This document shows positions 19,470-27,959 of a DNA stretch of 48,751 nucleotides, in pieces; within the stretch, counting starts at the first letter, position 1; every line of letters begins with the position of its first letter. A program made the translations under genes and the position numbers. Source of the DNA: Chloroflexota bacterium (GTDB lineage Bacteria > Chloroflexota > Dehalococcoidia > Lucifugimonadales > UBA3495); the NCBI GenBank assembly GCA_009837355.1, contig VXTR01000083.1, forward strand, positions 1-48,751, written 5' to 3'. Below the pieces are notes generated by a model. That model was given only the letters and a program-made list of their open reading frames with translations. It did not search any database and had not been told where the DNA came from.

Positions 19470-20671
19470 GCCAGCACGTCATAGTCGTAGCCAGTGTTGT
19501 TGAGCGCGCCCTCGGCGAATCGTGAAAGGCGCAGGGGGGATATGTCCATAGTAACAGCCTCGCCGTTGGCAATCAGCTCGGCCATCAGCAGGCCGACCAT
19601 GGGGGAGAGCTTGAAGCCGTGTCCGCTGAAGCCGGTGCACAGATACAGGCCATCCACGCCGTCAACCCGGTCGATGATGGGGTGTGAATCGGGGGTGTTG
19701 GTGTAGAGTCCGGCGTATCCGGCGGCGAGTTCAGCGTCGGCCATGGGCGGGATGCGGCGGGCCAATCGCTGCCAGACGTCCTGTATGAAGGATGGGCTGG
19801 CGCGTTGGGCGAAAACGTCGGGGTCGTGCACCACGTCGGAATGATTGCCGTTTCCCACCAGGGTCAACTCCCGGCCCTCCGGGCGGAAGTAGATGCGGTT
19901 GCTGATGTCAGCGCCACCCGGATGGTAAGGCACTGCGTCCAGCGGGCGGCGGAAGTGTAACACCTCGTGCCGGGTGGCGACCAACGGCGCGTCGATGTCG
20001 TGGGACTGCAGGAAGGCGGGCGACCAAGGCCCGGTGGCGACGACCGCGAGGGGGGTTTCAATGCGAGCGCCGGCGGCGGTGTTGACGGCGGTAACCCTAC
20101 TGCCGTCGGCGCCGGTTTCGATGGCGGCGGCGGGGGTTTGCAGCCGGATGCTGACTCCCTCAGCGCGGGCTCGGGTTGCGTAGGCGTAAGCGGTGGCGGA
20201 TGCGTCGGCGTGGCCGGAGTAGGGTTCGTAGGCGATGGCGGCGGCGTCGGAAACGGCAAACCCGGGCGCCAATCCGGCGGCGTCCGTCGGGCTGATGATG
20301 TCGGTGATTACGCCCACGGACTGCTGGATGGCGATGTTGACTCGGAAAGCGTCCACGTCGTCCGGGCCGGCGAACACCAGGTAGCCGGTTGGAACGTAGC
20401 CGCAATCGCCGCCGATGATGTCGGCGAAATTGCGGTAGATGTGCAGGCTGCGCCAAGCCATCTCAGCGTTGACGGCGGTGGAGTAGTAGTGCATACGGAT
20501 GGCGGCGCTGCTGCGTCCGGTGGAGCCGCTGCCCAGCGTGTCGCGCTCCAGCAAGACGATGCGCCGCAGGCCGTGGGTGTTGGCGGTGATTGCCAGGTTG
20601 CAGGCGATACTGCAGCCCATGACGCCGCCGCCGATGATGACGACGTCGGCGGTTTCGGTAGCGTTGGTCAT
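19466..20671 (-). CDS. FAD-dependent oxidoreductase (DAO family, sarcosine oxidase-like)
   Basis: A 401-residue D-amino-acid-oxidase-fold flavoprotein. The Rossmann motif VVIIGGGVMGCSIACNLA lies at 9-26, the FAD-ribose acid in VLLERDTLGSGSTGRSS (39-55) and the C-terminal FAD contact GFSGHGFKLSPMVG. Family members oxidise secondary or tertiary amines such as sarcosine, dimethylglycine or N-methyl amino acids. Its stop overlaps the ABC ATPase start by 4 bases, an unusual partner for an exporter. It starts 13 bases after the stop of an HNH nuclease gene. The substrate is not deducible. Confidence 0.88.
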   Translation of the reverse strand: MTNATETADVVIIGGGVMGCSIACNLAITANTHGLRRIVLLERDTLGSGSTGRSSAAIRMHYYSTAVNAEMAWRSLHIYRNFADIIGGDCGYVPTGYLVFAGPDDVDAFRVNIAIQQSVGVITDIISPTDAAGLAPGFAVSDAAAIAYEPYSGHADASATAYAYATRARAEGVSIRLQTPAAAIETGADGSRVTAVNTAAGARIETPLAVVATGPWSPAFLQSHDIDAPLVATRHEVLHFRRPLDAVPYHPGGADISNRIYFRPEGRELTLVGNGNHSDVVHDPDVFAQRASPSFIQDVWQRLARRIPPMADAELAAGYAGLYTNTPDSHPIIDRVDGVDGLYLCTGFSGHGFKLSPMVGLLMAELIANGEAVTMDISPLRLSRFAEGALNNTGYDYDVLA

Positions 20672-20684
20672 AGGTTCTGCCGGC

Positions 20685-21095
20685 CTAATTGCGCTCTCGG
20701 GAGCGGCGCACCTGGAAAGTGGTTCCGCGCTGTTTACGCATCCAGCGCAGGAACGAGGCCACCCTGGGGTTGGCCCGCAGGAGTTCCACGCTGTACAGTT
20801 CCTCGGCGAGGGTGGTTACCGAAAACATGGCGTGAACCTGACGGTGGCAAGTCGGGCAGAGCCAGGCGGTGGGCCCGTGATTGCCGCCGCGGGCGCGGGG
20901 CACCAGGTGATGCACGGTAGAACGCTCGACGATACGTTCACACAGTGCACACGTACCGTCGTCCGGAAGATTGCGCCGGTCGCCACTCTGGCCATGCCCC
21001 CGTCGGATGCCGTTGGCTACACCGGAACCGGAGGGAGGAGACAGCGACGCGCTGCGAGTTCCGCGGGAGCGGGTGCGTCCGTGTCGTTTAGCCAT
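20685..21095 (-). CDS. HNH endonuclease family protein
   Basis: A 136-residue protein. The C-terminal half has a zinc-bound HNH core: CALC, then VHHLVPRARGGN (catalytic His pair and Asn), then LCPTCHRQVH. The N-terminal 45 residues are basic and low in complexity. The ATG at 21095 was chosen because it overlaps the end of the preceding gene by 8 bases and the longer frame merely reads that gene's DNA. Stand-alone HNH proteins may nick or cut DNA non-specifically. No target or partner methylase is nearby. The position between an unknown gene and a flavoenzyme gives no functional clue. Confidence 0.75.
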   Translation of the reverse strand: MAKRHGRTRSRGTRSASLSPPSGSGVANGIRRGHGQSGDRRNLPDDGTCALCERIVERSTVHHLVPRARGGNHGPTAWLCPTCHRQVHAMFSVTTLAEELYSVELLRANPRVASFLRWMRKQRGTTFQVRRSRERN

Positions 21096-21582
21096 CGGAG
21101 CCGGAGGTGTCCAGGAACCGCCAGCCGGGGAGGTCGACCTGCCATTGGGCATCTTCGTACAGCATGGGAATCATGAGGCCGGACATCAGCCGGCTGCTTT
21201 GCACTACAGTCTCATCGGTAACGCCGAAGGGAAGGAAGACGAAAGCGTGCTCATCGTCGACGTAGCGAGTTGGCGCGGCGGCCAAGTCGGACAGGTCTTC
21301 CAGCGGCCAGAGACGCAGGACGGTGGTGCGGAAATCGTCGAGCAACGACATCCGCATGGGGTGATTGGAGTCGTAGGCGGCCCGGTAGGCAACCTGCATA
21401 TCAATGCTGTTGCGGGTGGCCCAGACACCCATGCGCATCCCGCGAGTTTCCTTGGAAAGCATGGCCCAGGCCAGGTCCATATCGCCGTCGCGGATTGACT
21501 CGGCAAAGAGCCCGGCGCGTTGGCCGACTTCGTCGGGTTCCTGACTGCGCCGCTGTCCCGGCATTCGCATGTTGGCCGCCAT
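21088..21582 (-). CDS. Hypothetical protein, possibly NTF2-like
   Basis: A 164-residue soluble protein. The opening helix pattern AGLFAESIRDGDMDLAWAML is like the start of NTF2/SnoaL-like or DUF4878-like proteins, followed by a mixed strand region ending WQVDLPGWRFLD. The family was not recognised with certainty. It is the first gene behind a good promoter (21632-21660) and its end overlaps the HNH gene by 8 bases. Function unknown. Confidence 0.65.
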   Translation of the reverse strand: MAANMRMPGQRRSQEPDEVGQRAGLFAESIRDGDMDLAWAMLSKETRGMRMGVWATRNSIDMQVAYRAAYDSNHPMRMSLLDDFRTTVLRLWPLEDLSDLAAAPTRYVDDEHAFVFLPFGVTDETVVQSSRLMSGLMIPMLYEDAQWQVDLPGWRFLDTSGSDG

Positions 21583-21631
21583 GGTTCCGGGCAGTAGTGG
21601 CGCGGTTCGGCGCTCCCCGGAGACTGCTTAC

Positions 21632-21660
21632 ATTCTAGGGTTTGGAGGGCGCAGTAGCAA
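21632..21660 (-). promoter_or_regulatory. Promoter upstream of the NTF2-like/HNH/FAD/ABC gene run
   Basis: A -35 TTGCTA (21660-21655), a 17-base spacer and a -10 TAGAAT (21637-21632). It would drive the minus-strand series from 21582 down to at least the ABC permease, where all gaps are short or overlapping. Confidence 0.5.
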
Positions 21661-21677
21661 ACGGGCGTATGGTGAAT

Positions 21678-22442
21678 TCAGGCTGGGGTTACGGCATCGC
21701 CAACGCGCACGGCGCCAGCTTTCTCGACGATGCCGTACACGCCGAAGTAGGCGGCCAAGGCGTTGGGGCGATAACCCAGGATGGACTTCACGGCGTCGGT
21801 GTCGGTCTCTCCGGTAATGGGGTCCTGGTTGACGATGGCGCAGCGGGGGTCGGGGGCCAGCACGCGGATTACGGCATCGCCGAGGGTGAGGGTGCGGTTC
21901 ATCCAGCCGTCTTCCTGATGGGGCTGGCAGCCGTCCAGCAGGAGGGTGGGACGAAAGCGGTCGGTGGCGAGGCAGTCGTCGTCGGACATACCCATTTCGG
22001 ATGACAGGCGTTCGACTGACGCCCGGGACAGGATAGAAACGGGGAATTCGTCGAACACCTGGCAGGGAAGGTCGGACATCATCAACTTTACGGGCTGGCC
22101 GCAGAACTCGCTCAACGCATCAGCCCAGTCGCCCAGCAGGGCCCGGCCGCGCACTCGGCGGCCCCACACGATGGTCCAGGCCGGGGCGTCCAGTTCGGGG
22201 CTGCTTTCCAGCGCGGCGCCGTCGGGGAAGCGGATGCCCAGGCGTTCCGCTTCAGCATTCCAGGATGCCGTCAACTGGGCCAGCTTGCCCACCTGGCGAC
22301 GGGTCAGGAGCCGGCCCTGGCCGTTGACCAGGTAGAAGTGCCGGTCATCAAGGATTCCGCCCAACTCGAGGTTGACGGATTGCAGGGGAACCAGCGCCAT
22401 GGACTTGACGGGGGCGATGTTGATTTCGGCGACGGTAATCAT
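21678..22442 (-). CDS. MOSC domain protein
   Basis: A 254-residue protein with the MOSC N-terminal beta-barrel (INIAPVKSM..GGILDDRHFYLVN) and the MOSC C-terminal half. The conserved Cys is in DPRCAIVNQDPITGETD. MOSC domains are sulphur carriers related to the end of molybdenum cofactor sulphurase, and in bacteria they act on reactive N-hydroxylated or sulphur compounds (YcbX, YiiM). The normal RCxxTTxDPxTG reads RCAIVNQDPITG here. A TATACT lies 15 bases before the ATG. It is 7 bases downstream of the zinc-finger/GIY-YIG-like gene. Confidence 0.87.
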   Translation of the reverse strand: MITVAEINIAPVKSMALVPLQSVNLELGGILDDRHFYLVNGQGRLLTRRQVGKLAQLTASWNAEAERLGIRFPDGAALESSPELDAPAWTIVWGRRVRGRALLGDWADALSEFCGQPVKLMMSDLPCQVFDEFPVSILSRASVERLSSEMGMSDDDCLATDRFRPTLLLDGCQPHQEDGWMNRTLTLGDAVIRVLAPDPRCAIVNQDPITGETDTDAVKSILGYRPNALAAYFGVYGIVEKAGAVRVGDAVTPA

Positions 22443-22449
22443 TTTTTAA

Positions 22450-22959
22450 TCAGCCCCAGTATAGTGGGGGGCGATCCTCGAGACCATCGGGCGAGGGGTA
22501 AATCCCGGTTATCATTTCAAACCTTTTGGCTAAGTACGTGTATCCGCCTAGTCCGGCAAGGAACATCGCATCTAATGCCCATTCAAACCTGAATGCCTCG
22601 AACTTACTTAGTTGCAACTCAGCGGGAGTGGCCCAGATGATGGCCCTTCCAGTAACTTCATCATGCTCTGCGTCGCGCGCGTAGGGGTCGGATGACATAC
22701 CGATGTAACCGTCGTCGCAAAAGTACACGAACCAGGAGCGACCTTCCGGCAACGATTGCAAAAAGCCGTAGCAATCACTGCACTGGTCGCAGTCCCAGCT
22801 CTTGGATCCTTTCCCCCTGCAATCACGGTCTGGGCATTCTCCACGACAATCCTGACAGGTAAGATAACCTGCGCCCTTATTCCTCCCGCAAAGCAGGCAC
22901 ATATTCAACATCTTAGGATCCATCAGATCGCGCAGTCGTTCTATGTTGTTGGTACTCAT
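22450..22959 (-). CDS. Cys-rich zinc-binding protein with GIY-YIG-like C-terminal domain
   Basis: A 169-residue protein. Residues 21-63 contain nine Cys in a dense pattern (CX2C-X10-CX2C-X3-C-X4-C-X9-CX2CX2C), probably two or three zinc knuckles. Residues 76-121 read like a small GIY-YIG nuclease fold: FVYF, YIGMSSDPYARDAEH and a Glu at about 118 or 121. GIY-YIG enzymes cut nucleic acids, and the zinc part could bind DNA or RNA. The match is by eye and the spacing between the first strand and YIG is short. The start at 22959 was chosen because the longer frame reads through a palindromic repeat. Confidence 0.55.
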   Translation of the reverse strand: MSTNNIERLRDLMDPKMLNMCLLCGRNKGAGYLTCQDCRGECPDRDCRGKGSKSWDCDQCSDCYGFLQSLPEGRSWFVYFCDDGYIGMSSDPYARDAEHDEVTGRAIIWATPAELQLSKFEAFRFEWALDAMFLAGLGGYTYLAKRFEMITGIYPSPDGLEDRPPLYWG

Positions 22960-22996
22960 TTTTGAACCCCGAAGGACATAGGATGTTACGGGGAGT

Positions 22997-23023
22997 GGAT
23001 TCCGGCTTTCGCCGGAATGACGG
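22997..23023. repeat. Dispersed palindromic repeat, copy 2
   Basis: Identical over 27 bases to 1557-1583, with the same 8-base stem and TTTC loop. It lies in the 106-base gap between the HpaB-type gene and the zinc-finger/GIY-YIG-like gene, again upstream of a minus-strand start. The flanking bases differ between the two copies, so the unit is about 27 bases. Confidence 0.8.
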
Positions 23024-23065
23024 TGGCGGGTGGAATGGCGGTTTGGTTGGCTTTGGTTGGTGTCA

Positions 23066-24520
23066 CTATTCCAGGGAGAGGAACTCCTGGACCAGGTTAC
23101 GCTGGGCGGTGCGGTCGTAGGTTTGGTAGAGGAGGGCGGCGTTGCGGGCGGCGTCGCCGCCGAAGTAGCGTTCGTAGAGGGTTTGCCGGCCGCCAAACGC
23201 GCTGCACGACACGTCCCAGGCGAGGCGGAAGAGGCGGATGCGTTCTTCGGCGGTGGCCGTGTCGGTGTCCATGTAGCGGTGAATGTCCTCGGCGAGAGGG
23301 CCGTTGAGGTCGGCCTCGGCGGGCAGGGCCATTAGGCTGCTGGAACCCAGGAGATGCAGGATTTCGGCCATGCGCGGGTACATGGTAATCATCTGCTTGC
23401 GGGCGACCAGCAGGGGCCGGTAATCGGGACAGAAGATGCCCCACTCGTCAAGCTCGGCCTGGGCCTCGGAGGCGGCCAGCAGGGCCTTGGTAATTTCCAG
23501 GTTCTCGATGAGCTCGGCGATGAGGTGCTGCGTTGGCGGCAGTTCGCCGGAGCCGAGCGTCTCCGACATCAGGGTCGCCAGGCCGAGCATAAACTCGCAC
23601 TTGACCACGTTCTTGGTGACCACCTGGTGGCCGGTATGGGCGTTGCGGTTGGTGCGCTCACCCCAGCGGTTGCACAGTTCCACGTCGTTGTAGAGGAACA
23701 CCCGCTGCCAGGGCACCAGGACGTCGTCGAAGAACACGATGGCGTCCATCTCTTCAAAGCGGCTGCCGGCCGGATGGTCAAAGTGAGAGCGGCCGAGGTC
23801 GATGGTATCGCGGCACTGGAACTTGAGGCCCTGGGTGTTGCAAGGAATGGCGAATCCGAAGGCGTACTTGCCCTCATCGCCGGCAGGGACGCGGCGAGTG
23901 CGGGCGGGATAGACGGCGATTTCGTCGGAGAGGGGGCCGAGGGTGGCCAGGACGCGGGCGCCGCGGACCACGATGCCATCGGCGTTTTCGTCCACCACCG
24001 ACAGCGCCACTTCGGTGCGGTCGTCAAAGGGAGTCGCGCCCACGGAGCGGCTGCGCTGCAGGTTGACCAGGGTGTGAGTCATCACGATGTCGTTTTCCCG
24101 GATGTACTCGTAGTAGTCCAGGATATTCTGCCTGAACTGCGGGCGGTTCAGTCCGGAGTAGTCGGCGGCAGCGGCCATGGACATGACGGCAACGTTGAGG
24201 AAATCCGGCGTGCGGCCCATCATGCCGCAGGAGAACTTTGCCCAGTTGCGCATCATCTTGCGGCGGCGTTTCAGGTCGTCGCCGTTACGGGGCATGATGA
24301 AGGACAGACCTACCGGGTCGCCGCTGCTGGGAGAGGCGTAGGTCATTTCGTCGCGTATTGCCGGATCGTGCTGCATATCCAGGAGGCCGGCGACGGTTTG
24401 CAGGCCGCCGGCGAAGGCGGAATGCCGGGTAACGTCGGCTACTTTCTCCCCGCCGATGTAGATGTCGGCGGCGCGCTCCCGCAGGCCGGCGATGTATTGC
24501 GCTCCGGTGCGTGCTGGCAT
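23066..24520 (-). CDS. hpaB: 4-hydroxyphenylacetate 3-hydroxylase family oxygenase (HpaB-type)
   Basis: A 484-residue flavin-dependent hydroxylase/dehydratase of the HpaB/4-hydroxybutyryl-CoA dehydratase superfamily. Recognisable segments are TYASPSSGDPVGLSFIMP near 60-77, RSRSVGATPF, MDAIVFFDDVLVPWQRVF and SSLMALPAEADL. The large subunit uses FADH2 supplied by a separate reductase to hydroxylate phenols. No reductase (HpaC) is in this window, so one must come from elsewhere. GGAGG stands 8-12 bases before the ATG. Similar genes are abundant in SAR202-like Chloroflexota. The exact aromatic substrate is unknown. Confidence 0.88.
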   Translation of the reverse strand: MPARTGAQYIAGLRERAADIYIGGEKVADVTRHSAFAGGLQTVAGLLDMQHDPAIRDEMTYASPSSGDPVGLSFIMPRNGDDLKRRRKMMRNWAKFSCGMMGRTPDFLNVAVMSMAAAADYSGLNRPQFRQNILDYYEYIRENDIVMTHTLVNLQRSRSVGATPFDDRTEVALSVVDENADGIVVRGARVLATLGPLSDEIAVYPARTRRVPAGDEGKYAFGFAIPCNTQGLKFQCRDTIDLGRSHFDHPAGSRFEEMDAIVFFDDVLVPWQRVFLYNDVELCNRWGERTNRNAHTGHQVVTKNVVKCEFMLGLATLMSETLGSGELPPTQHLIAELIENLEITKALLAASEAQAELDEWGIFCPDYRPLLVARKQMITMYPRMAEILHLLGSSSLMALPAEADLNGPLAEDIHRYMDTDTATAEERIRLFRLAWDVSCSAFGGRQTLYERYFGGDAARNAALLYQTYDRTAQRNLVQEFLSLE

Positions 24521-24558
24521 AACTGTCCCTCCTGACCTGAACAGTGGTGTGGGCTGAC

Positions 24559-24969
24559 CTACACCACTGCGTCAATCCCAATGGCGTCAATGGCGCGGGG
24601 CCGGTTGTCGGTTTTCAGGGCAATCATGGCGTAACCGGCCTGGCGACTGAGGATGTGCATACTCTCGATGTTGACGCCGGCGGCCTTCAGGCTGCCGGCA
24701 ACGCCGGCCAGGGCGCCCGGTTGGTCGGGCAGGCGGACGACCAGCGCGTCATCGCCGACGGCCTTGAAGCCGGCCTGGTTGAGCACGTAGAGGGCGCGGT
24801 CGTAGTTATCCGCGGTGAGGATGATTGCGCCGTGGCCGCCGGCGGTTTCGGCGTTGATGGTTTCCAGGTTGATGCCTTCATTGGCCAACGCGGCGGTGAC
24901 GTCGGCGATGACGCCGACCTCGTTGTCGGCCATGATGACGATGCGGTTCATCAGGTTGGGCTGGTTCAT
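24559..24969 (-). CDS. ACT domain protein overlapping histidine decarboxylase
   Basis: A 136-residue protein consisting of two ACT domains in tandem (about 9-75 and 77-136). The motifs NEVGVIADVTAALANEGINL and PGALAGVAGSLKAAGVNIES are the ligand-binding loop and first helix of each domain. ACT domains bind small molecules, mostly amino acids, and regulate enzymes. The start overlaps the end of the histidine decarboxylase gene by 4 bases, so the two are translated together. That suggests an amino-acid (perhaps histidine) sensor for the decarboxylase, which is inference. Confidence 0.85.
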   Translation of the reverse strand: MNQPNLMNRIVIMADNEVGVIADVTAALANEGINLETINAETAGGHGAIILTADNYDRALYVLNQAGFKAVGDDALVVRLPDQPGALAGVAGSLKAAGVNIESMHILSRQAGYAMIALKTDNRPRAIDAIGIDAVV

Positions 24970-26114
24970 GAGGAAAGCTCCCGGGCGGCGCAGTCGTTGA
25001 CGAGATCGTCAATCATTTGGCGGGTTACGTGGGGCATGGTGATGATGTGGGTGATGTCGCCTTCGGGGGCCATCTGCCACTTGCGGAAAACCTCCGGGGC
25101 CGGTCGGGGGAATACCACGGTGACCGAGTTTTTGTGTCGCCAGGCGGGGATGCCGCGCTCGTTGAACTGCCCAACGGCATACTCGGCGGTGTCCAAGGCG
25201 CCGGCCACGAGCTTGCGAAAGCCGGCGTCGCCATAGCGGGCGAAAGCGTGCCATAGGAGCAGGGGCGTGAAGGCGTTGCGCGAGCCGGACAGGGTGGTGT
25301 CCTCAACGCCGACGTACTCGATGGCGCGGCCCACGCGTTCGACGTAGGGTCGCCTGGTGAGCACGACGCCGCAGGGGAGGGGAGCGCCAATCATCTTGTG
25401 GCCGCTGATGGATACGCTGTCGATGCCGGCGTCAAAGCCATAGGGCTGGGGGTCGCCCACGAAGGGCAGGATCATGCCGCTGAGCGCGGCGTCGGCGCGG
25501 ATGTAGTGGCTGGTGACAGCCTGGTCGCGGAGGATGTCGCGTATGCGGGGGATGTTGTCGATCGCGCCGCGCATGGTAGTGCCCACGTTGGCCATTATGA
25601 CGGCGGGCAAGTCGCGATTCACCCGGATCATGGCTTCAAGATCATCGTAGTCGATTTCCCCGTTTTCCTGTCGCCGGATCATGATGTGGCGGGCGTTGAG
25701 CACCCGCACGTTTTTGAGTACGCTGTAGTGGGTCTCTTCGGAGAAGTAGAACATTGCGTTGGGGAACAGTTCCCGCGCCAAGTACAGCCCGTACATATTG
25801 CCCTCGGTGCCGCCGGAGGTTACGTAGCCCCAGGCATCGGCCGGGTCGATGCGCATCAGGGAGGCGAAACGGGCGATGACCTCCCGCTCAAAGGCGTGGG
25901 TGTTGCTCCAGTAGTTACTGGGGTGAAAGGGATCTCCCACATTGTTGATTGAGTAGTCCAAGAATGGCAGCAGGGCCGAATAGTTGAAATCCTGGTTCAC
26001 CGGATAGCCAACTTGCTGCCGAGTGGCCGCATGAATATCGCACAGGAGCCGGTTCAACCGCTCCTGGATTTCGCACTCCGGCAACGCGGTCCCCGCCGTT
26101 GCGTTGGTTGTCAT
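24966..26114 (-). CDS. hdc: Histidine decarboxylase (pyridoxal-phosphate type)
   Basis: A 382-residue PLP enzyme of the histidine/serine decarboxylase group. The PLP Lys is Lys230 in SISGHKMIG. His119 (SEETHYSV) should stack on the cofactor and Asp198 (RADAALSG) binds its ring nitrogen. The strings GYVTSGGTEGNMYGLYLAREL, EIDYDDLEAMI, NVGTTMRGAID and TTLSGSRNAFTPLLLWHAF follow the Morganella-type enzyme closely. It would convert histidine to histamine, or a related amino acid to its amine. The ATG at 26114 has GGAGGA 7 bases upstream. It overlaps the ACT gene by 4 bases. Confidence 0.86.
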   Translation of the reverse strand: MTTNATAGTALPECEIQERLNRLLCDIHAATRQQVGYPVNQDFNYSALLPFLDYSINNVGDPFHPSNYWSNTHAFEREVIARFASLMRIDPADAWGYVTSGGTEGNMYGLYLARELFPNAMFYFSEETHYSVLKNVRVLNARHIMIRRQENGEIDYDDLEAMIRVNRDLPAVIMANVGTTMRGAIDNIPRIRDILRDQAVTSHYIRADAALSGMILPFVGDPQPYGFDAGIDSVSISGHKMIGAPLPCGVVLTRRPYVERVGRAIEYVGVEDTTLSGSRNAFTPLLLWHAFARYGDAGFRKLVAGALDTAEYAVGQFNERGIPAWRHKNSVTVVFPRPAPEVFRKWQMAPEGDITHIITMPHVTRQMIDDLVNDCAARELSS

Positions 26115-27041: not shown

Positions 27042-27959
27042 CTAGCGGAGACGGCTCTGGGCTTCTCGCACTTCCTTGCCCCGGCGCCGGGCTTTGTCCA
27101 GATTGGCGCGGGCGAGATTGTCGTCGGGATTGAGATGTATCGCCGACTCAAAGTCGCTTACCGCTGACGTGTAATCGCCGAGGCAGAATTGGGCATAGCC
27201 GCGGTCAGCGTAGGCTTCCGCGTAGTCCCGGTTCAGGGCGATAGCGCGGTTGAAGTCGTTGATTGAGCGCTGGTACTCGCCCATGTGTCCCCAAGTGAGG
27301 GCACGTTGATACCAGGCGTGGGCGCTTTCGCGGTTGGCGGCGATGGCCTCTTCAAAGTCGGCGATCGCCTTCTCGAAGTCTCCCTCTTGCCGGTTGGCGA
27401 TTCCCCTTTGGATCAGGGAGTCGGTCTTGTCGACGGCTTTCACGCCGGCGGCATGGTGAACTGCAGCAGTCGGAGATTGTGGGTAGGTTGCCGGCGTTTC
27501 GGTTGCGTATCGCTTTCGGCGCAGACGGTGTTTCGCCTCATGCACCCGCTCCGCCTCGGCGCCGGCGTTCACCGCCATCAGGAGACGGCCGATGGAATCG
27601 AGGGCACGATCAAGGTCGTCATCGTCAAAGGGTTCCTGGTGCGCCCAGCGGTTACGAGTCTCACGGATTTCCGACACCAAGCTGCGTTCGATGGGGCCGA
27701 GATGGTCGCGGAAGACTTCGTTCCAGCCCGTTGCCATCACCTTCAACATCAACGATACGTCACCGGCAACATCGCCGGAGGTATCCACATCGTTGGGGAC
27801 GTAGCGGCCCATACCGGCGGCCTCCCGGAGCCTGGAAGCTACGTATGGCCCCAGCCCCACGGAGAGCAATTGCAGGGCGTTGCCAACCAGGCCGTGATTG
27901 GCGGAGGGGGCATTTGCAGGAGTAGAGGAGCCATTGGCAGAAGTGTAAGCAGATGTCAT
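27042..27959 (-). CDS. Swt1-type HEPN domain fused to TPR repeats
   Basis: A 305-residue protein. Residues about 24-130 match the Swt1-like HEPN domain: ALQLLSVGLGPYVASRL, the helix WNEVFRDHLGPIERSLVSEI and the HEPN ribonuclease motif RNRWAH (Rx4H, 102-107), then QEPFDDDDLDRALDSI. About 180-290 hold three TPR units. HEPN domains with Rx4H are often RNases, and Swt1 HEPN domains frequently sit beside defence or stress ATPases. Here it is fused to a protein-binding TPR array instead. The gene ends 3 bases from the convergent hydrolase gene. The function is not known. Confidence 0.75.
   Translation of the reverse strand: MTSAYTSANGSSTPANAPSANHGLVGNALQLLSVGLGPYVASRLREAAGMGRYVPNDVDTSGDVAGDVSLMLKVMATGWNEVFRDHLGPIERSLVSEIRETRNRWAHQEPFDDDDLDRALDSIGRLLMAVNAGAEAERVHEAKHRLRRKRYATETPATYPQSPTAAVHHAAGVKAVDKTDSLIQRGIANRQEGDFEKAIADFEEAIAANRESAHAWYQRALTWGHMGEYQRSINDFNRAIALNRDYAEAYADRGYAQFCLGDYTSAVSDFESAIHLNPDDNLARANLDKARRRGKEVREAQSRLR

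Follow-up and report, generated by a model that had tools for sequence, protein, structure and literature searches.

A probable GIY-YIG-type protein with an N-terminal cysteine array at an HpaB–MOSC junction of a Chloroflexota genome

Between the genes for an HpaB and a MOSC protein, contig VXTR01000083.1 of a Chloroflexota bacterium carries an open reading frame (ORF) of 169 amino acids: probably a horizontally acquired, stand-alone GIY-YIG endonuclease, nearest to the URI/Slx1 type and equipped with an N-terminal cysteine module. The window (the whole stretch analysed) comprises 48,751 nucleotides. The frame is intact from its ATG to its TGA, and its ends coincide exactly with positions 22450-22959, which an earlier note had described as a dense zinc-knuckle array joined to a GIY-YIG-like domain. 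The features discussed here are as follows.

22450..22959, minus strand: ORF of 169 aa with Cys-rich N-terminus and GIY-YIG-like domain, from reading of the ORF; unique in its own genome
22771..22899, minus strand: Cys array, residues 21-63, CxxC-x10-CxxC-x3-C-x4-C-x9-CxxCxxC, from the sequence; probable metal-binding module
22549..22740, minus strand: GIY-YIG-like domain, approximately residues 74-137, from profiles, alignment and guided model
22723-22725, minus strand: Tyr79, conserved column
22705-22707, minus strand: Tyr85, conserved column
22675-22677, minus strand: Arg95, conserved column
22663-22665, minus strand: His99, conserved column
22582-22584, minus strand: Glu126, conserved column
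22443..23065, no strand: segment that other genomes of the genus lack between HpaB and MOSC, from junction comparison
22990..23043, no strand: one copy of a repeat dispersed in the genome, lying between the ORF and HpaB; its core is an inverted repeat (ATTCCGGCTTTCGCCGGAAT; CGTCATTCCGGCGAAAGCCGGAATCCA)

Residues 74-137 match a URI-type profile far above both shuffled and real controls. Of 61 genomes searched within the phylum, 59 gave GIY-YIG matches, and 30 of the domains were sorted by eye into 15 of URI type and 15 of UvrC type (14 and, as the fifteenth, L009 from the genome itself; L052, with an internal stop, was dropped); eleven MUG113 loci formed a third set. Against the URI-type domains hhalign aligned residues 71-155 with a score of 34.7 (P 1.2e-5, probability 80.9). 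None of 500 shuffles of residues 71-169 scored as high (best 18.2), nor did any of 900 randomly drawn background frames; the best of these (20.8, LilHuddy) had itself been retrieved through similarity and is no independent control. Omitting the 15 members one at a time leaves the score between 32.1 and 36.9 (lowest without L051), and the domain alone reaches 33.4. The UvrC-type and MUG113 sets gave hhalign probabilities of 0.7% and 0.2%, and the genome's own UvrC-type domain reached no more than 17.3 with the URI set. Leave-one-out tests, run for five of the 15, gave scores of 126-212 for true URI members, so the 169-aa protein is a distant relative. With hmmsearch and the URI set the protein obtained 5.1 bits, where the best of 2000 shuffles had 3.4, and it headed the 1283 rows that a search including 1831 background frames reported; the mixed set put it third of 1370 rows.

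The curated libraries give a different picture: no model in Pfam, PHROG, NCBIfam or PADLOC recognises the protein as a nuclease. The Pfam and PHROG GIY-YIG models produce no row even at E up to 10, and the protein does not reach the cut-off of PF01541, an annotation threshold that lies outside the superfamily's own definition. In its own genome the sole Pfam GIY-YIG hit lies elsewhere, in an 813-aa frame on C24. The GIY-YIG likeness put forward in the earlier note is upheld by the profile with its controls, by the conserved residues and, less independently, by a guided structural model; the curated family models lend it nothing.

The protein is ordered as the cysteine array, then RSWFVYFCDDGYIGMSSDPYARDAEH, then a helix-like stretch with Glu121 and Glu126; YIGMSSDPYARDAEH, which follows the array, spans residues 85-99. 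In alignment A1, whose 15 rows are the 169-aa protein and 14 distant GIY-YIG relatives (20-32% identity), Y79, Y85, G87, R95, H99 and A122 are invariant (15/15 rows) and E126 is found in 14/15, the exception being a Gly in L053; the relatives by themselves have Arg and His in 14/14 cases and Glu in 13/14 (all but L053). Both motif tyrosines stand on invariant columns, Y79 in WFVY and Y85 in YIG, the first half-motif reading FVY; Slx1 likewise varies in its first half-motif (PMC8599992). The distance from Y85 to R95 is 10 residues, as is that from Y26 to R36 in C. glabrata Slx1 (PMC8599992), and R95 to H99 is four, matching the distance between R84 and Y88 in the model of Hpy188I (PMC2630997).

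The hairpin is where the domain departs from the others. Tyr79 and Tyr85 are spaced by 6, compared with 10, 11, 12 or 15 in 30/30 comparison domains, a regular-expression count that may have picked the wrong Tyr in a few of them; the earlier remark that the first strand of the motif is compressed was well founded. In the hhalign alignment with L038 two residues are missing on each side of the turn, and a shortening of two per side could keep the pairing register. It may also be that a Tyr-Tyr spacing of 6 does not leave a working active site.

Structural models agree with the profile result within limits. The single-sequence AlphaFold model is poor (pLDDT 41.7) and a Foldseek search with it is meaningless. 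Guided by A1, AlphaFold gave a mean pLDDT of 70 (84-87 in the blocks covering residues 76-105), with predicted strands at 76-81 and 86-89, a helix at 92-103, a strand at 107-109 and a helix at 119-137: a beta-beta-alpha-beta-alpha core, from an alignment that is itself GIY-YIG, so that the model leans to the fold. The first Foldseek rows for the guided model were a UPF0213 protein and EF2693, which we take to be a protein of the same kind (best E 0.43, not significant). At the head of the VIA-align rows stood the catalytic domain of I-TevI (Z 5.0; 66 residues with an rmsd of 2.7), followed by the N-terminal domain of a plant glutaredoxin, presumably also of GIY-YIG fold (Z 4.9); four Slx1 entries had Z 3.7-4.3, and MbtH-like and NRPS fragments reached 4.8 and 4.3 as well. 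These matches of a predicted model are consistent with GIY-YIG and are not independent proof of it. A search of solved structures by sequence returned four rows (best E 0.66), no nuclease among them.

The N-terminal array indeed holds nine Cys within 43 residues, as the earlier note had counted: reading the ORF places them at 21, 24, 35, 38, 42, 47, 57, 60 and 63, with one extra at 81 and none beyond it in the protein. At least nine Cys in 43 residues occurred in 14 of 20000 whole-protein shuffles and in 3 of 1829 stop-to-stop frames of at least 50 aa (window plus 34 loci), most of which are probably non-coding; the density is by itself unusual, not decisive. The name zinc knuckle, taken strictly, does not suit it. 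A zinc knuckle (CCHC) is CX2CX4HX4C with a His ligand; the array is devoid of His, the sole His of the protein being H99 with none before it, and its pairs are CxxC, as in zinc ribbons. The best library row for the module was DZR_2 (PF18912, Pfam E 2.2), presumably the N-terminus of ComF-like proteins, which has the same CxxC-pair spacing. Aligned by hhalign with 30 DZR_2 stretches from the phylum, the module had a score of 18.8 and a probability of 18.8; 1/300 full shuffles and 23/300 shuffles with the Cys fixed equalled this score, and the similarity is not significant against the latter. The spacing looks ribbon-like, and the DZR_2 similarity, its homology unproven, seems largely explained by that spacing. 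A weak genome match, L087 (E 0.0075), is likewise a Cys-rich, ribbon-like stretch. It is improbable that the array carries one or more iron-sulphur clusters in place of zinc: C57xxC60xxC63 does resemble ferredoxin spacing, and the only NCBIfam row was the YfhL 4Fe-4S ferredoxin, but this match (E 0.18, short of its cut-off) is not significant and the CxxC-x10-CxxC part is ribbon-like, though there too the DZR_2 similarity is equally unproven.

Of the three sets compared, stand-alone bacterial proteins of URI/Slx1 type (UPF0213-like) show the highest profile similarity. Tyr, Tyr, Gly, Arg, His and Glu are common to both, with an identity of only 20-32%; the hairpin here is about four residues shorter, and the 15 URI frames fetched have 0-3 Cys upstream (from stop to domain) instead of a nine-Cys N-terminus. 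Eukaryotic Slx1 joins GIY-YIG to a C-terminal C4HC3 RING zinc domain (PMC8599992). The likeness lies in the union of GIY-YIG with a Cys-rich metal-binding domain, here a predicted one; the difference is that the array of the 169-aa protein is N-terminal and has no His, and no Cys follows residue 81 where an orthodox Slx1 would have its RING. I-TevI has a zinc finger within its C-terminal DNA-binding part (in the portion of PMC1564403 concerned), and GIY-YIG homing endonucleases of this kind resemble the guided model in fold and have, as our protein may have, a modular link to a zinc-containing part, whereas no intron was found here with Rfam. The zinc or Cys parts named in that portion of PMC1564403 come after the nuclease domain, and a narrow search of the literature, covering titles and abstract openings, found no description of a nine-Cys module ahead of a GIY-YIG domain.

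HpaB lies upstream and MOSC downstream, both in the direction of the ORF. The ORF may be read together with them, because the direction is shared and its stop lies 7 bases before the MOSC start codon; a simple scan of 22300-23300 found no sigma-70-like promoter or terminator. The GC content of the ORF is 52.7%, against 62.6% for the window, and its GC3 59%, against 71-85% in six neighbouring ORFs. MOSC and HpaB are likewise neighbours in each of 13 further genomes of the genus, and none of these 13 loci contains a match to the 169-aa protein: the gap between the HpaB and MOSC matches is 5-67 bases in 12 of them and 1208 bases in the thirteenth, L021, where it holds a different frame. The gene is therefore, within this sample, an insertion peculiar to one genome, and its absence from 13/13 junctions together with its low GC (53% in a 63% window) argues for recent acquisition. 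The junction has taken in other DNA at least once: L021 has an insert of about 1.2 kb (its positions 293-1500) whose frame is radical-SAM-like by eye. The gaps of two relatives, L012 and L020, contain another short inverted repeat, of GGGGCGAATAATTATTCGCCCC type.

The repeat at 22990-23043 recurs at no fewer than 39 further genomic places (E below 1e-6); a first look gave 95 candidates, of which 40 were scored, and copies are probably more numerous. Since this adjoining repeat is so widespread in the genome, the insert appears to belong to the genome's own DNA and not to a contaminant. Elsewhere in the window, positions 20685-21152 (minus strand) encode an HlpB-related HNH protein (NCBIfam E 1.5e-25, below the cut-off of that model); its start overlaps the next ORF upstream, and four same-genus loci (L012, L013, L014, L016) have matches of 64-70% identity. 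Positions 27042-27959 (minus strand) encode a HEPN_Swt1 domain with TPR repeats after it (Pfam E 9.1e-26).

Searches for homologues returned the gene itself and little else. There is no second copy in its own genome; no homologue of the whole protein was found in viral contigs, or by tblastn in phages or plasmids. With residues 74-169 and E up to 10, tblastn gave one row in phages and one in plasmids, the latter a CydD gene (E 3) that was set aside. Within the family 1/50 genomes matched, namely its own; in samples of the phylum (E up to 0.01) and class, 8/400 and 8/393 genomes matched, own genome included. The 14 other phylum and class matches (E 1.4e-4 to 0.0097) were attributed to chance or Cys composition: nine have internal stops, and in the five open ones (L004, L005, L008, L087, L089) the GIY-YIG regular expression is absent. 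The exact compressed-hairpin pattern occurs once in the window, in the ORF itself, and in neither viral nor genome contigs. The viral-contig pattern YIGM[ST][ST][DN]P..R...H found four stretches (two distinct proteins), all four GIY-YIG and homing-endonuclease-like by eye; of 26 pattern-matching stretches in genome contigs none was confirmed as a homologue. Cys-spacing patterns matched at least 120, 29 and at least 120 stretches in viral contigs, and among those listed no open frame fits the GIY-YIG regular expression or scores convincingly with a profile. A match in Arthrobacter phage LilHuddy, WYVYLCSDGYSSGLSRYPHAR, was rejected as chance: its frame crosses annotated gene 45 in a different reading frame, has a stop immediately before it and runs on into a separate small frame.

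From these comparisons we infer nuclease activity, zinc binding and a role for the 169-aa protein. In Slx1 the GIY Tyr is the general base, the YIG Tyr and the Arg act on the phosphate and the Glu on a single metal (PMC8599992). By analogy with the work on Slx1 and Hpy188I, Tyr79 would serve as general base, Tyr85 and Arg95 would hold the scissile phosphate, Glu126 would hold one divalent metal, and His99 would sit at the position of Hpy188I Tyr88. The nine Cys could form a double-ribbon-like unit around two metal ions, most likely of zinc, with C21/C24/C35/C38 as one possible ligand set and four of C42/C47/C57/C60/C63 as the other; by binding nucleic acid or a partner, the module may guide the small catalytic domain to where it acts. 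What the evidence supports best is a small endonuclease that depends on metal and has an N-terminal module that would recruit nucleic acid, its gene probably having come with a mobile element or by transfer. It may serve defence, repair or its own spread; the protein has no match in the PADLOC defence library, no Rfam match lies within 20000-25000, and neither a second copy nor an orthologue was found.

Three other accounts deserve consideration. That the resemblance is due to chance, in an unrelated Cys-rich protein or a non-coding frame, would fit the silence of the curated models and the poor single-sequence AlphaFold model; a score far above that of 500 shuffles and 900 other frames, and key residues all present in order across the full domain, make it very unlikely. 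A better case, though still an unlikely one, is that the GIY-YIG fold no longer cuts, the hairpin having lost its active geometry, and that the protein has a binding role, with nucleic acid or a partner, or is decaying after transfer. Its Tyr-Tyr spacing, below the minimum of 10 seen in all 30 comparison domains, speaks for this, as does the lack of any orthologues found that might show selection on the residues; against it, the frame is intact and every expected catalytic residue is kept, where a decaying gene would lose them before long.

The remaining account narrows the main reading and does not oppose it: a selfish, free-standing, homing-endonuclease-like nuclease would place its own gene in the DNA between other genes. 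Many homing endonucleases have GIY-YIG domains (PMC1564403), the junctions of all 13 relatives lack the segment, the GC of the gene is low, and the same junction of L021 received a different insert. However, the nearest profile is of URI type (the sets compared had no separate profile for intron-type homing endonucleases), Rfam points to no known intron, the gene is single-copy, and the adjoining repeat stands at 39 or more places where the gene does not; we regard homing as rather doubtful, if somewhat less so than loss of activity.

The biological weight of the acquired GIY-YIG protein is so far limited to one gene in one genome. It might, as a tentative proposal about which we are more doubtful than confident, represent an unrecorded GIY-YIG family with an N-terminal double metal ribbon and a uniquely short hairpin (spacing 6), spreading by transfer into operon junctions of environmental bacteria and missed by the curated models searched. 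A Cys module ahead of the nuclease is a new arrangement among those described in the portion of PMC1564403 cited above. If the protein is active, the GIY-YIG active site would tolerate a hairpin that falls short of those in the comparison set by about four residues, and profile libraries would be missing real members of the superfamily.
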